Translations under genes and position numbers: made by a program
Source of the DNA: Elusimicrobia bacterium GWA2_56_46
GTDB lineage: Bacteria > Elusimicrobiota > Elusimicrobia > Elusimicrobiales > UBA9959
Reading direction: 5' to 3'
Assembly: GCA_001799575.1 (NCBI GenBank)
Contig: MGTT01000016.1
Span: forward strand, 62,001-126,000
DNA length: 64,000 bases
Shown: one piece after another, positions 16,213 to 51,664 of the stretch
Layout: each line of letters opens with the position of its first letter
Numbering within the stretch: position 1 is the stretch's first letter
Notes under the pieces: model-generated
Database searches by the model: none
What the model was told of the DNA's origin: nothing
The model's input: only the letters and a program-made list of their open reading frames with translations

Positions 16213-17418
16213 ATGCCCCTTAAAATCCTGATCGTCAGCGAGCGCTTTTATCCCGAAGAGTTCATCATCAACGACCTCGCCTCCCAGTGGGCGGAGCGCG
16301 GCTTTGAAGTGGACGTCCTGACCCAGATCCCCAGCTACCCTTTCGGAAAGGTCTTCCAGGGCTATTCCAACCGCCTTTTCTCGGAAGAGTGCTGGAAAAA
16401 GATCCGCATACTGCGCTTTTTCACCGTTACAGGCTACCGGGAATCCCTGTTTTTTAAACTTCTGAATTATCTGAGTTTCGCGATCACGGGCAGCCTTGCG
16501 GCCCTGTGGATAGGCCGGAAATACGACCGGATCTTCGTATACAATACGGGCCCGCTGACCGCCGCCCTGCCCGCCGTATTTTTGCATAAGTTTTACAAGA
16601 AACACGTTACTATCTGGACCCAGGATATCTGGCCGGACATGGTTTACGCCTACGGGTTCAGGAAGACAAAAACGCTTTCGTTTTTCCTGGACAGGCTGGT
16701 GGCGTTCATTTACAGGAACTGCGACACGATCTTTATTTCGTGCGCCGGTTTCCGCAAAAGTATAGAGCCGTACGCTCCCGGCAGAACCATGCATCACTTC
16801 CCGAACTGGCCAACGGTCGCTCCCTCGGCCGGCGCCGCCGGAGGAGCTCTTAAACTTCCGGACGGTTTCAACTTTACTTTCGCCGGGAACATAGGTAAAT
16901 TCCAGAATCTGGACAATATAATACGGGGATTCGCGCTGGCGGGCGCGTCAGGTTCCGGTCTGCGGTTGAATATCGTCGGGGACGGGTCGGAACTGGAACG
17001 GCTCAAGGAACTGGTGGAGGCGGAACATATCGGAGGAGTTGTGTTCTGGGGGCGGAAAAGCCAGTCCGAGATGCCCGCCTTTTTTAACGCCAGCGACGTT
17101 ATGATAGTCTCGCTTAAAGACGCCCCGGTTTTTGAGCTTACCGTTCCGGCCAAATTCCAGGCCTATCTGGCTTTTTCAAAACCCATTTTCTGCGTCATGA
17201 ACGGCGAAGTCCGCCGCATAGTTGAGGAATATAAGACCGGCCTCTGCGCCGCCCCCGGCGACCTGAACGGGATCCGGGATGGCTTCCTAAAATTCCATGG
17301 ATTAAGGGATGGGGGGTTGAAGAGCTTCGCCGAAAACTCAAAAATCCTCCTTGAAACCGTCTACGACAGGGACAAGATCACGGCCGCCATGACGGACCTG
17401 GTCGTGGCGGGAAAATAG
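16213..17418 (+). CDS. Glycosyltransferase family 4, WbuB-like (L-fucosamine transferase)
   Basis: The 401-residue GT-B protein starts with ILIVSERFYPEEFIINDLA and contains IWTQDIWPD near residue 134, both typical of the WbuB/WcaI group. The C-terminal half has FAGNIGKFQN near 219 and an acidic catalytic region FELTVPAKFQAYLA near 312. WbuB transfers L-FucNAc in Escherichia coli O26. The three upstream genes make UDP-L-FucNAc, so that donor is likely. The ATG at 16213 is preferred because an earlier in-frame start lies inside repeat DNA. Confidence 0.85.
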   Translation: MPLKILIVSERFYPEEFIINDLASQWAERGFEVDVLTQIPSYPFGKVFQGYSNRLFSEECWKKIRILRFFTVTGYRESLFFKLLNYLSFAITGSLAALWIGRKYDRIFVYNTGPLTAALPAVFLHKFYKKHVTIWTQDIWPDMVYAYGFRKTKTLSFFLDRLVAFIYRNCDTIFISCAGFRKSIEPYAPGRTMHHFPNWPTVAPSAGAAGGALKLPDGFNFTFAGNIGKFQNLDNIIRGFALAGASGSGLRLNIVGDGSELERLKELVEAEHIGGVVFWGRKSQSEMPAFFNASDVMIVSLKDAPVFELTVPAKFQAYLAFSKPIFCVMNGEVRRIVEEYKTGLCAAPGDLNGIRDGFLKFHGLRDGGLKSFAENSKILLETVYDRDKITAAMTDLVVAGK

Positions 17419-25356: not shown

Positions 25357-25364
25357 TGGATAAT

Positions 25365-25648
25365 CGCCCCGCACATCCAGTGCGGGATGCAACACGCGAA
25401 GCGTGTGTTGCAGGTCAGTGTGCGACAGACGGAGAATCTGATTCCACAGTATTCAGGAGATTCCCGCATCGGGGGGTTCAGTGCAGCGACTGAGCCTTGT
25501 GGCGAAGGAAGCAAACGCGGAAGGGGGGCAGCGCCCCCCTCCGGGAGCACCGGCCCGAGTTCCTCTAGAGGGCCGGCGGTAATCCGCCCCGCGCATTCAG
25601 CGCGGGATGCAACACGCGAAGCGTGTGTTGCAGGTCAGTGTGCGACAG
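25365..25648 (+). ncRNA. Duplicated structured leader upstream of tRNA-Leu
   Basis: A 64-bp unit occurs at 25365-25428 and again at 25585-25648, in the same direction. Each unit forms two hairpins: CCCGCAC/GTGCGGG in the first copy and CCCGCGC/GCGCGGG in the second, then a GCAACACGC/GCGTGTGTTGC stem with a small bulge. The first stem differs by a compensatory base-pair change. The second copy ends two bases before the tRNA. The 156-base spacer contains further GC-rich hairpins but no convincing gene. The leader may guide tRNA processing or be a small RNA; this is inference. Confidence 0.5.
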
Positions 25649-25650
25649 GA

Positions 25651-25732
25651 GCGCGGGTGGCGAAACTGGTAGACGCGCACGTTTGAGGGGCGTGTGCCTA
25701 ACGGCTTGGGGGTTCAAATCCCCCCCCGCGCA
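25651..25732 (+). tRNA. tRNA-Leu (anticodon GAG)
   Basis: The acceptor stem GCGCGGG pairs with CCCGCGC. The D-arm GCG/CGC, the anticodon stem CACGT/GCGTG with loop TTGAGGG, a long variable arm, and the T-stem GGGGG/CCCCC are all present. The loop places GAG at positions 34-36, reading CUC and CUU. CCA is not encoded. A T-run follows, but lysA starts 12 bases later, so the tRNA may be processed from a longer transcript. Confidence 0.95.
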
Positions 25733-25744
25733 AATTTTTTGTTT

Positions 25745-26959
25745 ATGAACTTCCCGGCCGGCCTGGTAAAGCGGATAGTTGAAAAGACCGGCACCCCGGT
25801 CTATATTTATTCCGCGCAAAAGATCCTGGATAATCTGGGGGCGTATAAAAAACAGTTCGCCTCTCTCCAACCTCTGTTCTGCTATGCCATGAAGGCCAAT
25901 TCCAACGGCGCCGTGGCCCGGCTGCTGGCCCGGAACGGCGCTGGCGCGGACGTGGTCAGCGGGGGGGAATTATACCGGGCGCTGCGGGCCGGTTTCGATC
26001 CGCGGAAAATAATATTTTCAGGAGTGGGGAAGACGGCCGAAGAGCTCGCTTACGCTCTGCGTTCCGGCATTTTATTCATAAACGTGGAGTCGTTCGAGGA
26101 ACTGGAGGCGCTTGAGCGCGCCGCGGCCGGGCTGAAGCTCAAGGCCCCGGTTTCGGTCAGGATAAATCCGGATGTGGATCCTCATACCCATAAATTCATT
26201 ACCACGGGAAAGATCGGGAGCAAGTTCGGCGTGGCGTTCAAAGAGGCGGGACGGCTTTATTCTTTCGCCAAGGCCTCGCGCCACCTGGAGCCCGTAGGCC
26301 TCCATTTCCACCTCGGTTCGCAGATAGATTCTCCTGAACCGTACGCGAAAGCGCTCGCGGCCGCCGCTAACTTTATCCGCCGGCTTGAGAAAGACGGCGT
26401 AAAGCTGAAGTATCTGGATATCGGCGGCGGCTGGGGGGTAAAGGAAGGATCCGAGATGCTGCCGCCCGGCATCCTGGCGCGGACGGTAGGGCCCGCGGTC
26501 AAAGAACTGGGCCTTGCGCTCATTCTGGAACCGGGCCGCAGCCTGGTCGCGGCCGCCGGCGCGCTGGCCGTGCGGACACTTTACAGGAAGAAAAGCGGGC
26601 CGAAAAACTATGTTATAACCGATGGCGCCATGAATGATCTTATACGGCCGGCCTTTTACGGCGCCAGGCATCCGGTAATACCGCTGGTCAGGAGGCGCGG
26701 CAAGTCCGTCCGTTTCGATATAGCCGGGCCGGTGTGCGAAAGCGGGGATTTTCTGGCCCAGGATGTCGGCCTGCCCGTTCCTTTGCGGGGCGATATTCTG
26801 CTGGTCCTGTCGGCGGGGGCCTATGGATTTTCTATGAGTTCGCAGTACAATTCCCGGCCGAGGGCGGCCGAGGTTCTTATAACCGGCAAGAATTCCTGGC
26901 GCGTAGTAAGGAAGCGCGAAACCTACAAAGACCTGGTCGCCGGGGAAATAAACGTCTAA
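25745..26959 (+). CDS. lysA: Diaminopimelate decarboxylase
   Basis: The 404-residue PLP enzyme makes L-lysine from meso-diaminopimelate. The Schiff-base Lys lies in FCYAMKANSNGAV near residue 47. HLGSQID near 199, the GGGWGV loop near 231, EPGRSLVAAAG near 260 and CESGDFLAQD near 333 are the expected alanine-racemase-fold and decarboxylase motifs. The start at 25745 is used because the longer open frame would run through the tRNA. The gene follows the tRNA by 12 bases. Confidence 0.95.
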   Translation: MNFPAGLVKRIVEKTGTPVYIYSAQKILDNLGAYKKQFASLQPLFCYAMKANSNGAVARLLARNGAGADVVSGGELYRALRAGFDPRKIIFSGVGKTAEELAYALRSGILFINVESFEELEALERAAAGLKLKAPVSVRINPDVDPHTHKFITTGKIGSKFGVAFKEAGRLYSFAKASRHLEPVGLHFHLGSQIDSPEPYAKALAAAANFIRRLEKDGVKLKYLDIGGGWGVKEGSEMLPPGILARTVGPAVKELGLALILEPGRSLVAAAGALAVRTLYRKKSGPKNYVITDGAMNDLIRPAFYGARHPVIPLVRRRGKSVRFDIAGPVCESGDFLAQDVGLPVPLRGDILLVLSAGAYGFSMSSQYNSRPRAAEVLITGKNSWRVVRKRETYKDLVAGEINV

Positions 26960-27032
26960 ATTCCCCGATCCTCCGCTAACAAGCCTGCGTCATTGATGAA
27001 AAGATTTCACCCATTGGGTGAAAGTGGAAAAT

Positions 27033-27570
27033 GACGGCGGGCTGCTGGTTCGGGGGCCTGTCAGCCATGGGGCCCATCGGGCCGAAAGGGGCCCGGCGAC
27101 TGACCTATGGGCGTGCCGCAACAGGGCCTATGGCCAACAGGCGGCCTTCGCGCCGGTTCCCCTTTCGGTCCGATCCAACCCATGGCTGCCACCCCTCCAG
27201 TTTATACCCCGCCGCCATCCTCCTAAATACAGCCTTAAAAACGAACCTATATTTGCCCACGAGGCATCCACACTGCAAGATGGTTGCCAATGAAGAGATG
27301 ATAATTTTAAGGGGGGCCGTGGAAGTCTGGAAAAGCACCGGTGATTTTGTAAAACTTACTGATTCCTATACTGGGCGGGTAATTCAAGTATTAATTTGGG
27401 CGGGGTCAATATATTGTATTTTCAAATTGGAATGCCGAGCGACCATCAAGTGTGTAAATTTTACTAAGGGGTGACGATGGACAGCCTTTTTGTCCCGCAG
27501 GCCGCCGAGGGAAGCATAAAAGGCTGTCCATCGGCAGGCCCCCGGTTTTACTATCCTGCGGTTCGTTAAC
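27033..27570 (+). mobile_element. Second inverted-end cassette, short cargo
   Basis: This locus has the same left-type and right-type ends as the HEPN cassette at 50132-51656. At the left, a 29-bp imperfect stem (27063-27091 with 27159-27187) is followed inward by GCCACCCCT (27188-27196). At the right, AGGGGTGAC (27467-27475) is followed by a 15-bp stem (27476-27490 with 27518-27532) and GGCAGGCCCCCGG. Right-end flanks match those of the other locus closely. The roughly 240 bases between the ends are AT-rich and have no convincing gene. The copy has no outer 57-bp repeat, so it may be decayed. Confidence 0.6.
27280..27474 (+). CDS. Short open frame inside the second cassette (doubtful)
   Basis: An ATG at 27280 opens a 64-residue frame with a hydrophobic stretch VIQVLIWAGSIYCIF. 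No ribosome site or known domain is visible. It ends in the conserved right-end sequence. It may be a remnant of an earlier cargo gene, or chance. Confidence 0.2.
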   Translation: MVANEEMIILRGAVEVWKSTGDFVKLTDSYTGRVIQVLIWAGSIYCIFKLECRATIKCVNFTKG

Positions 27571-27614
27571 CCAAAGCTGCTAGGATTACCGCTTATCGGA
27601 GGATTTGGATAAAT

Positions 27615-28733
27615 TTATTCGGCGGACTGGAGCAGTTGGCGGAGGGACGGGCGGTTCATTGGGGGGATGGCAACTGAGAGGGGGAGCACCGGGCCGGGTA
27701 GGGGGGCGGCGGGGGCGAAGATCAGGCTTTTCAGTTCCGGCATCAGGGCGTGGAGTTCGTCCCCGGGGCAATCGGTATTGCCGATGTCCCGGTGGGCGTA
27801 AAAACTGCTTATGTCGATATTGTAGGCGGTTTTGAGATATTTTCCCATTTCGACAAAAGTGTAGAGAGTTTCTTTCGTGGGCTTCTGGCTGACCGGGGGA
27901 TGATAGTTGCCCATGACGGAGATGCCGATATTTCCGTCGTTCCGGCCTCTCACGTGCGCGCCCACCACATTCACCGGCCGGCCCTCAAAAATATCTCCCT
28001 GGGGATCTATGACAAAATGGTAGCCGAGGTCTATCCAGCCGCGGCCGTTCTGGTGATAGTCCTGCAGGAACTGCATTTCCCGGACGGCTTCGTCGTAGTT
28101 CTTAGGATAATGTCCAGCGGTGTTGTGGAGCGTGAATATTTTCGGGGCGTGAGGGGTATAAGGCTCGCTTGGGGGCGCGGCCTGCCAGGCGCCGCGCCTG
28201 ACGACGGTAAATGGCATTTCCGCGGGCAGATAGAATCCGGGGTCGGGCTTGTAGGCCGCGGGCGCCGGGGCCGAAATAATTTCCTTTACTAAGGTCTCGC
28301 GGAAAGCCTCCGCGCCGTAGATGGTGAACGTGTGGCGCAGGGAAACGCCGGCGTTGAGAAGAGCGAGTTTTACCGGCTCCCCGGTCCGGCGTCCCATTTT
28401 GTATTTGGCCCAGAATCTGCCGCCCGGAAACCGGTGAATGGCGGTTTTGTCATAGGTTTTGAAAGCCGCGCCGTTCTTTATTCTGACCTGGAGCTGCACG
28501 CCGGGATCCGGCATCTCGCCCTGGATCAGGATCGTGTCGTAATCCTGAGAGGGGATTTCGCTGAACGGCGTTTCATACAGTACGGCGCCGGGCGCGGTTT
28601 CGGGGGAGACGGAAATTTCCAGGGGATACGCGGCGCTCCCGAAGATGAGCGAGTTGTCCCCGCTCCCGGCGGCCGCGCCGGCCGCCGCCAGGAAAATAAT
28701 CAAAGCCGCGAACTTGAACGATCTCATAAGCAT
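27615..28733 (-). CDS. Secreted N-acetylmuramoyl-L-alanine amidase, PGRP/amidase-2 type
   Basis: The 372-residue protein has a signal peptide ending near residue 23 in an Ala-rich segment. The catalytic domain covers about residues 180-350. Zinc ligands are visible as the His in FTLHNTAGHYP, the His in YAHRDIGNTDCPGDEL, and the Cys in that segment. YHFVIDPQGDIFEGRP and GAHVRGRNDGNIGIS are family signatures. It should cut the bond between MurNAc and L-Ala in peptidoglycan. The first 150 residues are unassigned and may bind cell wall. A second ATG, two codons downstream, is an alternative start. Confidence 0.9.
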   Translation of the reverse strand: MLMRSFKFAALIIFLAAAGAAAGSGDNSLIFGSAAYPLEISVSPETAPGAVLYETPFSEIPSQDYDTILIQGEMPDPGVQLQVRIKNGAAFKTYDKTAIHRFPGGRFWAKYKMGRRTGEPVKLALLNAGVSLRHTFTIYGAEAFRETLVKEIISAPAPAAYKPDPGFYLPAEMPFTVVRRGAWQAAPPSEPYTPHAPKIFTLHNTAGHYPKNYDEAVREMQFLQDYHQNGRGWIDLGYHFVIDPQGDIFEGRPVNVVGAHVRGRNDGNIGISVMGNYHPPVSQKPTKETLYTFVEMGKYLKTAYNIDISSFYAHRDIGNTDCPGDELHALMPELKSLIFAPAAPLPGPVLPLSVAIPPMNRPSLRQLLQSAE

Positions 28734-50115: not shown

Positions 50116-50291
50116 CGGATAATATAACTTCGGGGCAAAGGGCCAGGCTTCAGGGCAAAGGTGCCAGCCTTCTTTTTCAGCAGAAAAAGTAGGCTGGCTC
50201 TCTTTGCCAGGCGCGGGGTTGGATGGCTTTGGGCTAAGAGCCGCACGATAGCCCAGTCGGGTCGGCGGCGGCTGCAAGTTCGGGGTCCTGT

Positions 50292-50357
50292 CGACGGGCA
50301 GTCTTTTCGCTTCCCTCGGAAGCCTGCGGGACGAAAAGGCTGCCCATCGCCACCCCT
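50292..50357 (-). repeat. Left-type end hairpin of the HEPN cassette
   Basis: Arms at 50292-50309 and 50332-50349 match at 16 of 18 positions, with two wobble-type differences. The loop on the minus strand reads CCCGCAGG, then CCGAGGGAA. GCCACCCCT (50349-50357) is the inner boundary motif, AGGGGTGGC on the minus strand. An ACAGGACCCCGAAC block lies outward. Confidence 0.8.
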
Positions 50358-50434
50358 CCAACTATACCCGCCGCCGCCCCTCCGCCAAAACTTACGCGTA
50401 TTATGTTCCCCAGGCTTATGTGCGAAAAGGCAAA

Positions 50435-51382
50435 ATGCTTTTTCGTATTGTGAAAAATATCGAACTTTTACCATTAAGGATTATGGATAGGAAAGAGAGT
50501 TATCTGTCGGTAATTGGGGCGCACTATGTGCCAGATATCGTTTTGGACTTTTTACCCAGAATATTTGAAGCGTATAAAATTCGTGATTACAAAAGTAAGA
50601 ACTTTCAAGTAAGTGCTTGTGAAAATACCCTTTCAACGGCAGGATTACTATTATCTGTAGCAAGTATTGAATCGTACGCTAACCGCATTTTCCGGTTTGA
50701 AGAGAAGCGGGGGCCAGTTCCGGAGAAGATTTCGGAAATATTCTGGAGCAAAAATAATAATTTCCCAAAAGAGGATTTTGAAAGATTATTGTGCGAAGTA
50801 TACATACTCAGAGATGTTATTGTCCATAACCATATTTACGACATTTCTACTGCGGTTGACAGGGAATCTTGGGAAATTAAGCATCTGGATGAGACTTTGG
50901 TGATTGGAAAGGGCGAGAAAGATAAAAAATTCAAGGAGTGTGTTGATTGCGCTGCTAAAAAAACCAAATTGTTGAAACTGCATGTGCAACCTCTTAAAAT
51001 AGGTTTTGAGGATTTGTTTACAGTGCTTTTTGTCTTTGACACTTTCGTGCGCTTATCGCAATCGATGCTCAGCGATTCCCATGTCCCGTTTCGGCTTTAC
51101 TGTAAAATTGGGAAAACAACCGAGTCCAGCCTTTCACGTCTTCTGGCCTCTTACTATCGGCAAATCACGAACGAAGAGTATCTTAAAGCATTAGAATCTC
51201 TTTTAACGGAATTGCGGGGAAAATATGCGCACTTTCTCGTGTCTCCATACGATGATGCCTTTATAAATAATATTTGTCCGCGTCCTAATTGTGGAAAGAT
51301 TGGATTTCATACAATTCTTCGGGGGAACACTTGTGCAGCTTGTGGGTTATCAATTGGGAGGCCACTTGCTCAGAATGCTTAG
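50435..51382 (+). CDS. HEPN-motif protein with C-terminal zinc ribbon (cassette cargo)
   Basis: The 315-residue protein shows a HEPN-type helical domain in the first half. SVASIESYANRIF near residue 73 fits the first HEPN helix. R126-DVIV-H131 gives the Rx4H catalytic motif of HEPN ribonucleases. A four-Cys zinc ribbon at the C-terminus uses C281, C286, C300 and C303. The gene is much richer in A+T than its neighbours and sits between inverted repeats, signs of transfer. A role as an RNase toxin or defence protein is inferred. The start could also be ATG at 50483 or GTG at 50420. Confidence 0.72.
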   Translation: MLFRIVKNIELLPLRIMDRKESYLSVIGAHYVPDIVLDFLPRIFEAYKIRDYKSKNFQVSACENTLSTAGLLLSVASIESYANRIFRFEEKRGPVPEKISEIFWSKNNNFPKEDFERLLCEVYILRDVIVHNHIYDISTAVDRESWEIKHLDETLVIGKGEKDKKFKECVDCAAKKTKLLKLHVQPLKIGFEDLFTVLFVFDTFVRLSQSMLSDSHVPFRLYCKIGKTTESSLSRLLASYYRQITNEEYLKALESLLTELRGKYAHFLVSPYDDAFINNICPRPNCGKIGFHTILRGNTCAACGLSIGRPLAQNA

Positions 51383-51442
51383 ATGAAAATGTGGAGGGTC
51401 GGGTAATTAGGCCGATGGATCATCAAGTGTGTAAGTTTTACA

Positions 51443-51522
51443 AGGGGTGACGGGGCAAGGCTTTTTCGACCCCGCAGGTTGCCGAGGGAACGCGAAAAAG
51501 CCTTGCCCCGGCAGGCCCCCGG
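51443..51522 (+). repeat. Right-type end hairpin of the HEPN cassette
   Basis: AGGGGTGAC (51443-51451) is followed by a perfect 17-bp stem, 51452-51468 with 51493-51509. The loop has CCCGCAGG and CCGAGGGAA. GGCAGGCCCCCGG (51510-51522) lies outward, then TTTTACTATCCTGCGG. The inner flank CATCAAGTGTGTAA is also found at the right end of the second cassette. Confidence 0.85.
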
Positions 51523-51664
51523 TTTTACTATCCTGCGGTGCTAAAGCCCAAAGTTGACCAGCCCCGCTTTTTGGCAAAGAGAGCCAGCCTACTTTTTCTG
51601 CTGAAAAAGAAGGCTGGCACCTTTGCCCCGGAAAAATAAGCCTGGCACCTTTGCCCTGATAAAT

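Follow-up and report, generated by a model that had tools for sequence, protein, structure and literature searches.

Two loci in the window analyzed here, a 64,000-nucleotide stretch (C16:62001-126000) of the 2.66-Mb, 30-contig Elusimicrobiota genome G000, are bounded by ends of one repeat family that folds into hairpins. Taken as a whole, the evidence is probably best explained by a hairpin-frame superfamily in which locus 2 is an IS1380-mobilized MITE and locus 1 is an older relative that bears a gene. Both loci would then belong to a single superfamily of mobile elements, with long imperfect inverted frames as their ends. We found no account of this hairpin-end family in the Elusimicrobiota literature.

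The motifs that an earlier note on this DNA had reported for the left and right ends are in place at both loci. At the right ends, CATCAAGTGTGTAA occurs exactly at 27444 and 51421, on the plus strand in both cases, and has no further occurrence; with two mismatches allowed, two matches were obtained in 0 of 100 shuffles. The same ends share GGCAGGCCCCCGG and CTATCCTGCGG (27533 and 27551 at locus 2, 51510 and 51528 at locus 1), and AGGGGTGGC is found on the minus strand of both left ends (27188 at locus 2, 50349 at locus 1). Each of these three short motifs is weak alone, while all shared motifs combined are far beyond chance.

Alignments indicate one frame that exists in four versions (R, Lf, S and L), each composed of GGGGTGRC, an inner palindromic module, GRCAGGMCCCC and version-specific flanks (GACCATCAAGTGTGTAAGTTTTAC ... 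TTTACTATCCTGCGG in the R version, GGGTATARCTGGA ... GAACTKGCAGCC in the L version). The asymmetric core GGGGTGRC ... GRCAGGMCCCC is invariant and is closed by an exchangeable inner hairpin. The common inner module, m1, has the apex GTCCCGCAGGYYKCCGAGGGAAGC; modules m2, m3 and m4 are unrelated in sequence, and in five frames, including the left end of locus 1, a whole L hairpin takes the place of the inner hairpin. The two ends that had been described as distinct can indeed be told apart, but they are homologous, having diverged from one frame that is present in inverted copies; in some elements both ends are R-type frames. Module m3 also occurs in dozens of solo copies in the comparison genomes G001 (same genus as G000) and G002 (a sister species), apparently more than in G000 (L052:5500-6040, corresponding to C4:37.5-38.0k).

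Among 29 aligned cores, compensatory changes were found in 15 of 30 pairs, and the share of paired cells is 98.9% (85.0% in shuffles). The covariation score is 0.403, compared with 0.132 when shuffled and at most 0.087 when the partner is slid by 1-3 columns. Folded as single-stranded DNA, the R end of locus 2 reaches -33.8 kcal/mol (z = -4.0 versus shuffles). Compensatory changes of this kind would also fit RNA, and frames often lie directly 3' of stop codons, as would functional RNAs (terminators, mRNA stabilizers or structured non-coding RNA) that are repeated by chance. We regard this explanation as very improbable, given the outward pairing of frames around DNA segments, the target duplications and the transposase linkage described below; moreover, the end hairpins were unmatched by Rfam, which recognized only a tRNA and a cobalamin riboswitch in the window. 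A terminator role acquired after insertion is possible.

The right-end block of locus 2 (window positions 27380-27600) has 61 matches in G000, many with E < 1e-20, and the consensus left end has 52; the two sets overlap because one core is common to all ends. The family amounts to about 70 frames in this genome, among which many R ends and most L hairpins are solo. In the stretches fetched, neighboring frames less than 5 kb apart are oriented outward in 20 cases, in the same direction in 6 and inward in 1, so the paired ends are not scattered singly and in random orientation. A covariance model, R1, was used for a scan of the phylum and matched (E <= 0.001) in 20 of 341 Elusimicrobiota genomes, all from one family and five genera, a count that weak matches may escape. 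Viral contigs contained neither exact matches to the apex pattern or the terminal-repeat pattern nor a relative of the gene carried by locus 1, and a phage origin was rejected on these grounds.

Counting its terminal inverted repeats (CCNNATCCTCCGNTAA), the locus 2 element extends over 645 bp (26964-27608) and is thus larger than the interval 27033-27570 first proposed; TAAATT, a 6-bp duplication of the target, flanks it (Table 1). Target duplications in the family include ATCTCC, TAAATT, TGCGCC, AATCAC and AGCTCCAC; most are 5-6 bp long and one is 8 bp. Over 11 paired elements of 105-710 bp, one of which is probably a false pair, the duplication score was 41, and none of 5000 re-pairings of the flanks scored as high (mean 9.2, maximum 40). 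The earlier note had proposed a family of cassettes, as opposed to random repeats, with different DNA and differing cargo inside. The paired ends bear out the first part, and different DNA is enclosed by the ends of locus 1 and of about a dozen further loci that bear genes. The interiors of loci 1 and 2 do differ, but locus 2 is not a cassette: its body of about 200 bp is conserved and common to eight copies, and is therefore not cargo. With shared terminal inverted repeats, a target duplication, a conserved body and no transposase gene of its own, locus 2 has the features of an IS1380-derived MITE, and we conclude with high confidence that it is a MITE with unusual hairpin ends. An open frame of 147 codons (window 27031-27474) that runs through the L palindrome and the body is probably spurious. 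Nearby, two copies of another dispersed repeat family (GCGGGATGCAACACGCGAAGCGTGTGTTGCAGG...; window 25360-25660) lie beside tRNA-Leu(GAG) (25651-25732); this family has many matches in G001 and G002.

Table 1. Features of locus 2 and locus 1, in window coordinates.
Feature	Position	Strand	Remarks
Target duplication TAAATT, left copy, locus 2	26957..26962		One base (C) between duplication and terminal repeat
Left terminal inverted repeat CCCGATCCTCCGCTAA, locus 2	26964..26979	+	Nearly identical to the G001 IS1380 left end over roughly 90 bases, counted inward
L-type hairpin end, locus 2, inner module m2 (AGCCATGGG..GGCGCGAAG..)	27016..27232	-	nhmmer L profile; inverted repeat
AT-richer body without gene cargo, locus 2	27233..27430		79-99% identity in 8 copies, some with internal deletions
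R-type hairpin end, locus 2, inner module m1	27431..27598	+	nhmmer; ssDNA fold
Right terminal inverted repeat CCAAATCCTCCGATAA, locus 2	27593..27608	-	Read on the minus strand
Target duplication TAAATT, right copy, locus 2	27610..27615		One base between duplication and element
57-nt palindrome outside left frame, locus 1	50153..50209	+	100% complementary to 51572-51628
Left frame, R-like (Lf), locus 1	50199..50419	-	R profile match; CTATCGTGCGGCTCTTAGCCCAAAG
L hairpin nested in left frame, replacing inner hairpin, locus 1	50249..50395	-	L profile match; alignment
Cargo gene, 320 aa, locus 1	50420..51382	+	GC 0.396 (window 0.56)
R-type hairpin end, locus 1	51395..51579	+	Alignment; R profile
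57-nt palindrome outside right frame, locus 1	51572..51628	-	Complementary to 50153-50209

A candidate mobilizer is encoded in G001. This IS1380-family transposase gene (a 347-residue stretch; NF033539 at 193.5 bits with a cut-off of 180, PF13701 at 106 bits) is bounded by a terminal inverted repeat and an L hairpin on contig C44 and by the matching right terminal inverted repeat on contig C75, and the two contigs overlap inside the gene. The alignment of its left end with locus 2 runs through the terminal repeat, ACCCATTGGGTGAAA and an L frame that contains module m2. The right end reads CCAAATCCTCCGCTAAG and lacks an R frame, and the joined flanks of this split IS show no clear target duplication. 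Because the terminal repeat and left hairpin end found at locus 2 also bound an IS1380 gene in a sister species, the reading that fits locus 2 best is an IS1380-mobilized MITE. An IS1380-type transposase probably moves it, a conclusion drawn from shared ends and held with somewhat lower confidence than the MITE assignment. G000 retains only part of this gene (81% over 31 codons), which adjoins a young MITE and is accompanied by a TIR-like end of its own and by an L frame that contains module m3; an intact IS1380 transposase was not found in this genome, a point against the model that makes present mobility there uncertain. No frames were detected at the ends of three further, more distantly related IS1380-like genes, which belong to G034 and G005. 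Other transposase sequences near frames in G001 and G002 include an IS110-family gene (L211:2880-3899, NF033542) and an IS110-like fragment (L157:7700-7993).

Locus 1 spans 50.15-51.65 kb and carries one low-GC gene. Its frames are homologous to the IS1380-linked L frame, and locus 1 is an older, different member of the superfamily that includes locus 2. The 320-aa product has no Pfam, NCBIfam, PADLOC or PDB-sequence match and no plasmid match, and a single-sequence AlphaFold model has a pLDDT of 32.7, too low to be informative. Locus 1 showed no CCNNATCCTCC termini, and we were unable to establish a TA target duplication, considered as a possibility for the older termini (TAAKGTRAYGCC). Gene-bearing elements of this type have neither CCNNATCCTCC termini nor a clear target duplication, and their tie to IS1380 is thus one that we infer. 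Inverted copies of a 57-nt palindrome (GGGCAAAGGTGCCAGCC...) lie outside locus 1, and similar hairpins occur outside R frames on C4, C14, C27 and C30.

The cargo of other loci is varied. A SAM methyltransferase lies between two R frames (C28:202714-204027), and an element on C30 carries a Bro-N protein (PADLOC PDC-S13). We also identified DUF1016/YhcG cargo (PADLOC PDC-S02), toxin-antitoxin-type cargo in the form of a HigB/HigA-like pair (HigBA) and a BrnT/CopG pair (BrnTA), an M23 peptidase, a DUF3800 protein, a C11 peptidase, an ADPrib_exo_Tox-domain protein and an alpha/beta hydrolase. Only one frame was recognized at several of these loci, which makes their other boundary uncertain. The cargo is foreign-looking by GC, with a mean of 0.474 versus 0.573 for 377 other ORFs (p = 4e-13).

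Comparison with the sister species indicates both gain of elements and turnover of their contents. Neither the methyltransferase element nor either of two solo frames on C28 is present at the orthologous sites in G001 and G002, and two sites on C4 have no frame at their counterparts in these genomes. Conversely, ten frame clusters in G001 and G002 occupy seven sites that hold a frame in G000 too, with different cargo or none; because stretches were picked for comparison on the strength of the frames they hold, no occupancy rate should be read from these counts. The shared sites are RsmE/MiaB-like, RlmD/lipoprotein, uvrC/MGMT, the hydrogenase (locus 1), the AmmeMemo 3' end, a 409-aa dehydrogenase-like gene and transketolase. 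At the RsmE/MiaB-like site, the cargo is DUF1016 in G000, ORF6N plus a helicase in G001 and a TylF-like methyltransferase in G002; the AmmeMemo site has a hydrolase in one species versus a ChaN-like protein in another, and the uvrC/MGMT site has an M23 peptidase versus none. Frames with an ORF6N-like gene are also present after rpsJ in G002 and in G021, which belongs to a different genus (L170:762-2250, L192:786-2119).

Different cargo at the same site across sister species (RsmE/MiaB-like, AmmeMemo, uvrC/MGMT and hydrogenase) could reflect structure-recognized recombination sites of a dispersed integron-like platform, in which a recombinase acting on folded hairpins swaps cargo at fixed sites. 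The variable hairpin on a conserved bulged core, with its strong covariation, and the series of R frames along contig C27 would suit such a system. We nevertheless consider it quite unlikely: no recombinase was found within the frames or next to them in the stretches read, the target duplications of young copies are of the transposase type, and several sites are empty in relatives. Boxes of the integron attC type (RYYYAAC ... GTTRRRY) surround the hairpin in 0 of 34 frames, and the integron gene cassette was rejected as an identity for these elements. Another reading, which we view as unlikely, is a dispersed, sedentary cassette platform in one Elusimicrobiota family, with hairpin-bounded sites after core genes, at which a putative dedicated enzyme exchanges single genes (toxin-antitoxin, candidate phage defense, hydrolases) and inner hairpins between frames, with no tandem arrays or integron-type sites.

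Alternatively, the cargo turnover of the older elements might be plain homologous recombination, with near-identical dispersed frames serving as portable homology arms and the whole element no longer transposing. Inner modules are swapped between frames and positions are common to three species, as this would predict. On C27, the 3' end of an AmmeMemoRadiSam-type gene is partially duplicated beside two successive R frames (L053:14990-15150, 16300-16460), which is expected from, and suggests, a recombinational merger of two cargo versions. The empty orthologous sites of the methyltransferase element and the two solo frames indicate, however, that new sites are also occupied, and we regard homologous recombination as a possible but rather doubtful account of the older elements.

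According to the transposition reading that we prefer, locus 2 would be a non-autonomous MITE that depends on an IS1380-family transposase acting in trans; this enzyme would cut at CCNNATCCTCCGNTAA and duplicate about 6 bp of target. At locus 1, the same kind of frames would bound one acquired gene. By analogy with ISEcp1 and paired TIMEs, gene pick-up may have occurred when IS1380-type transposition took a distant or second frame as the other end. Today, gene-bearing elements might remain at fixed sites 3' of core genes, their cargo and inner hairpins changing over time, probably via later transposition or homologous recombination between frames. If this reading holds, ends supplied by an IS1380-type transposase are dispersed in two forms in a phylum with few cultured members: as tiny elements without genes and, in the older versions, as carriers of single acquired genes. 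The cargo forms a concrete set that includes toxin-antitoxin pairs and PADLOC phage-defense candidates (the DUF1016 and Bro-N proteins), and the ends have a defined structure; their inner hairpins covary and can be swapped, and what these hairpins do in transposition is directly testable.

Several known systems resemble parts of this family. REP and REPIN sequences are dispersed extragenic palindromes, often in inverted pairs and downstream of genes (PMC3733652), and the frames share these properties. Their hairpins are 90-140 bp long, however, compared with 20-40 bp, and have no conserved foot tag (GTAG in 1 of 34 frames, CGTC in 0 of 34), so REP/REPIN was rejected. TIMEs and TIME-flanked mosaic transposons of the Tn3 family (PMC4133298) have non-autonomous ends that mobilize intervening DNA and form gene-bearing elements of variable size. 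The elements described here are similar in these respects and in their 5-6 bp duplications, but have IS1380-type termini instead of the 38-bp repeats of Tn3, have hairpin ends and were confined to one Elusimicrobiota family in our scan. Within the IS1380 family, ISEc9 mobilizes adjacent genes via poorly matching right ends (PMC12116815); our elements would be linked to it by membership in the same transposase family, a capture event not having been observed here. Target duplications of ISEcp1/IS1380 are reported as 4-5 bp long (5 bp for ISEc9; PMC12116815), whereas here most are 5-6 bp and one is 8 bp, which counts against the IS1380 reading.

Like IS-derived MITEs, elements of the locus 2 type are short and gene-free, with terminal inverted repeats, target duplications, many copies and a parental transposase elsewhere. 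They differ in that each has a pair of large subterminal hairpin frames whose inner modules can be swapped, and in that the parental IS is known only from a sister species. Mobile insertion cassettes of the MIC231 type carry a passenger gene between transposon ends and have no transposase; locus 1, the methyltransferase element and the Bro-N element on C30 likewise have a passenger gene between inverted ends and no transposase. The MIC231-type cassettes (Chen et al. 1999, cited in PMC6542083) involve another IS family, and the older ends described here differ further in having no identified parent IS. We classify the hairpin-end family as a variant of the MITE and mobile insertion cassette types.
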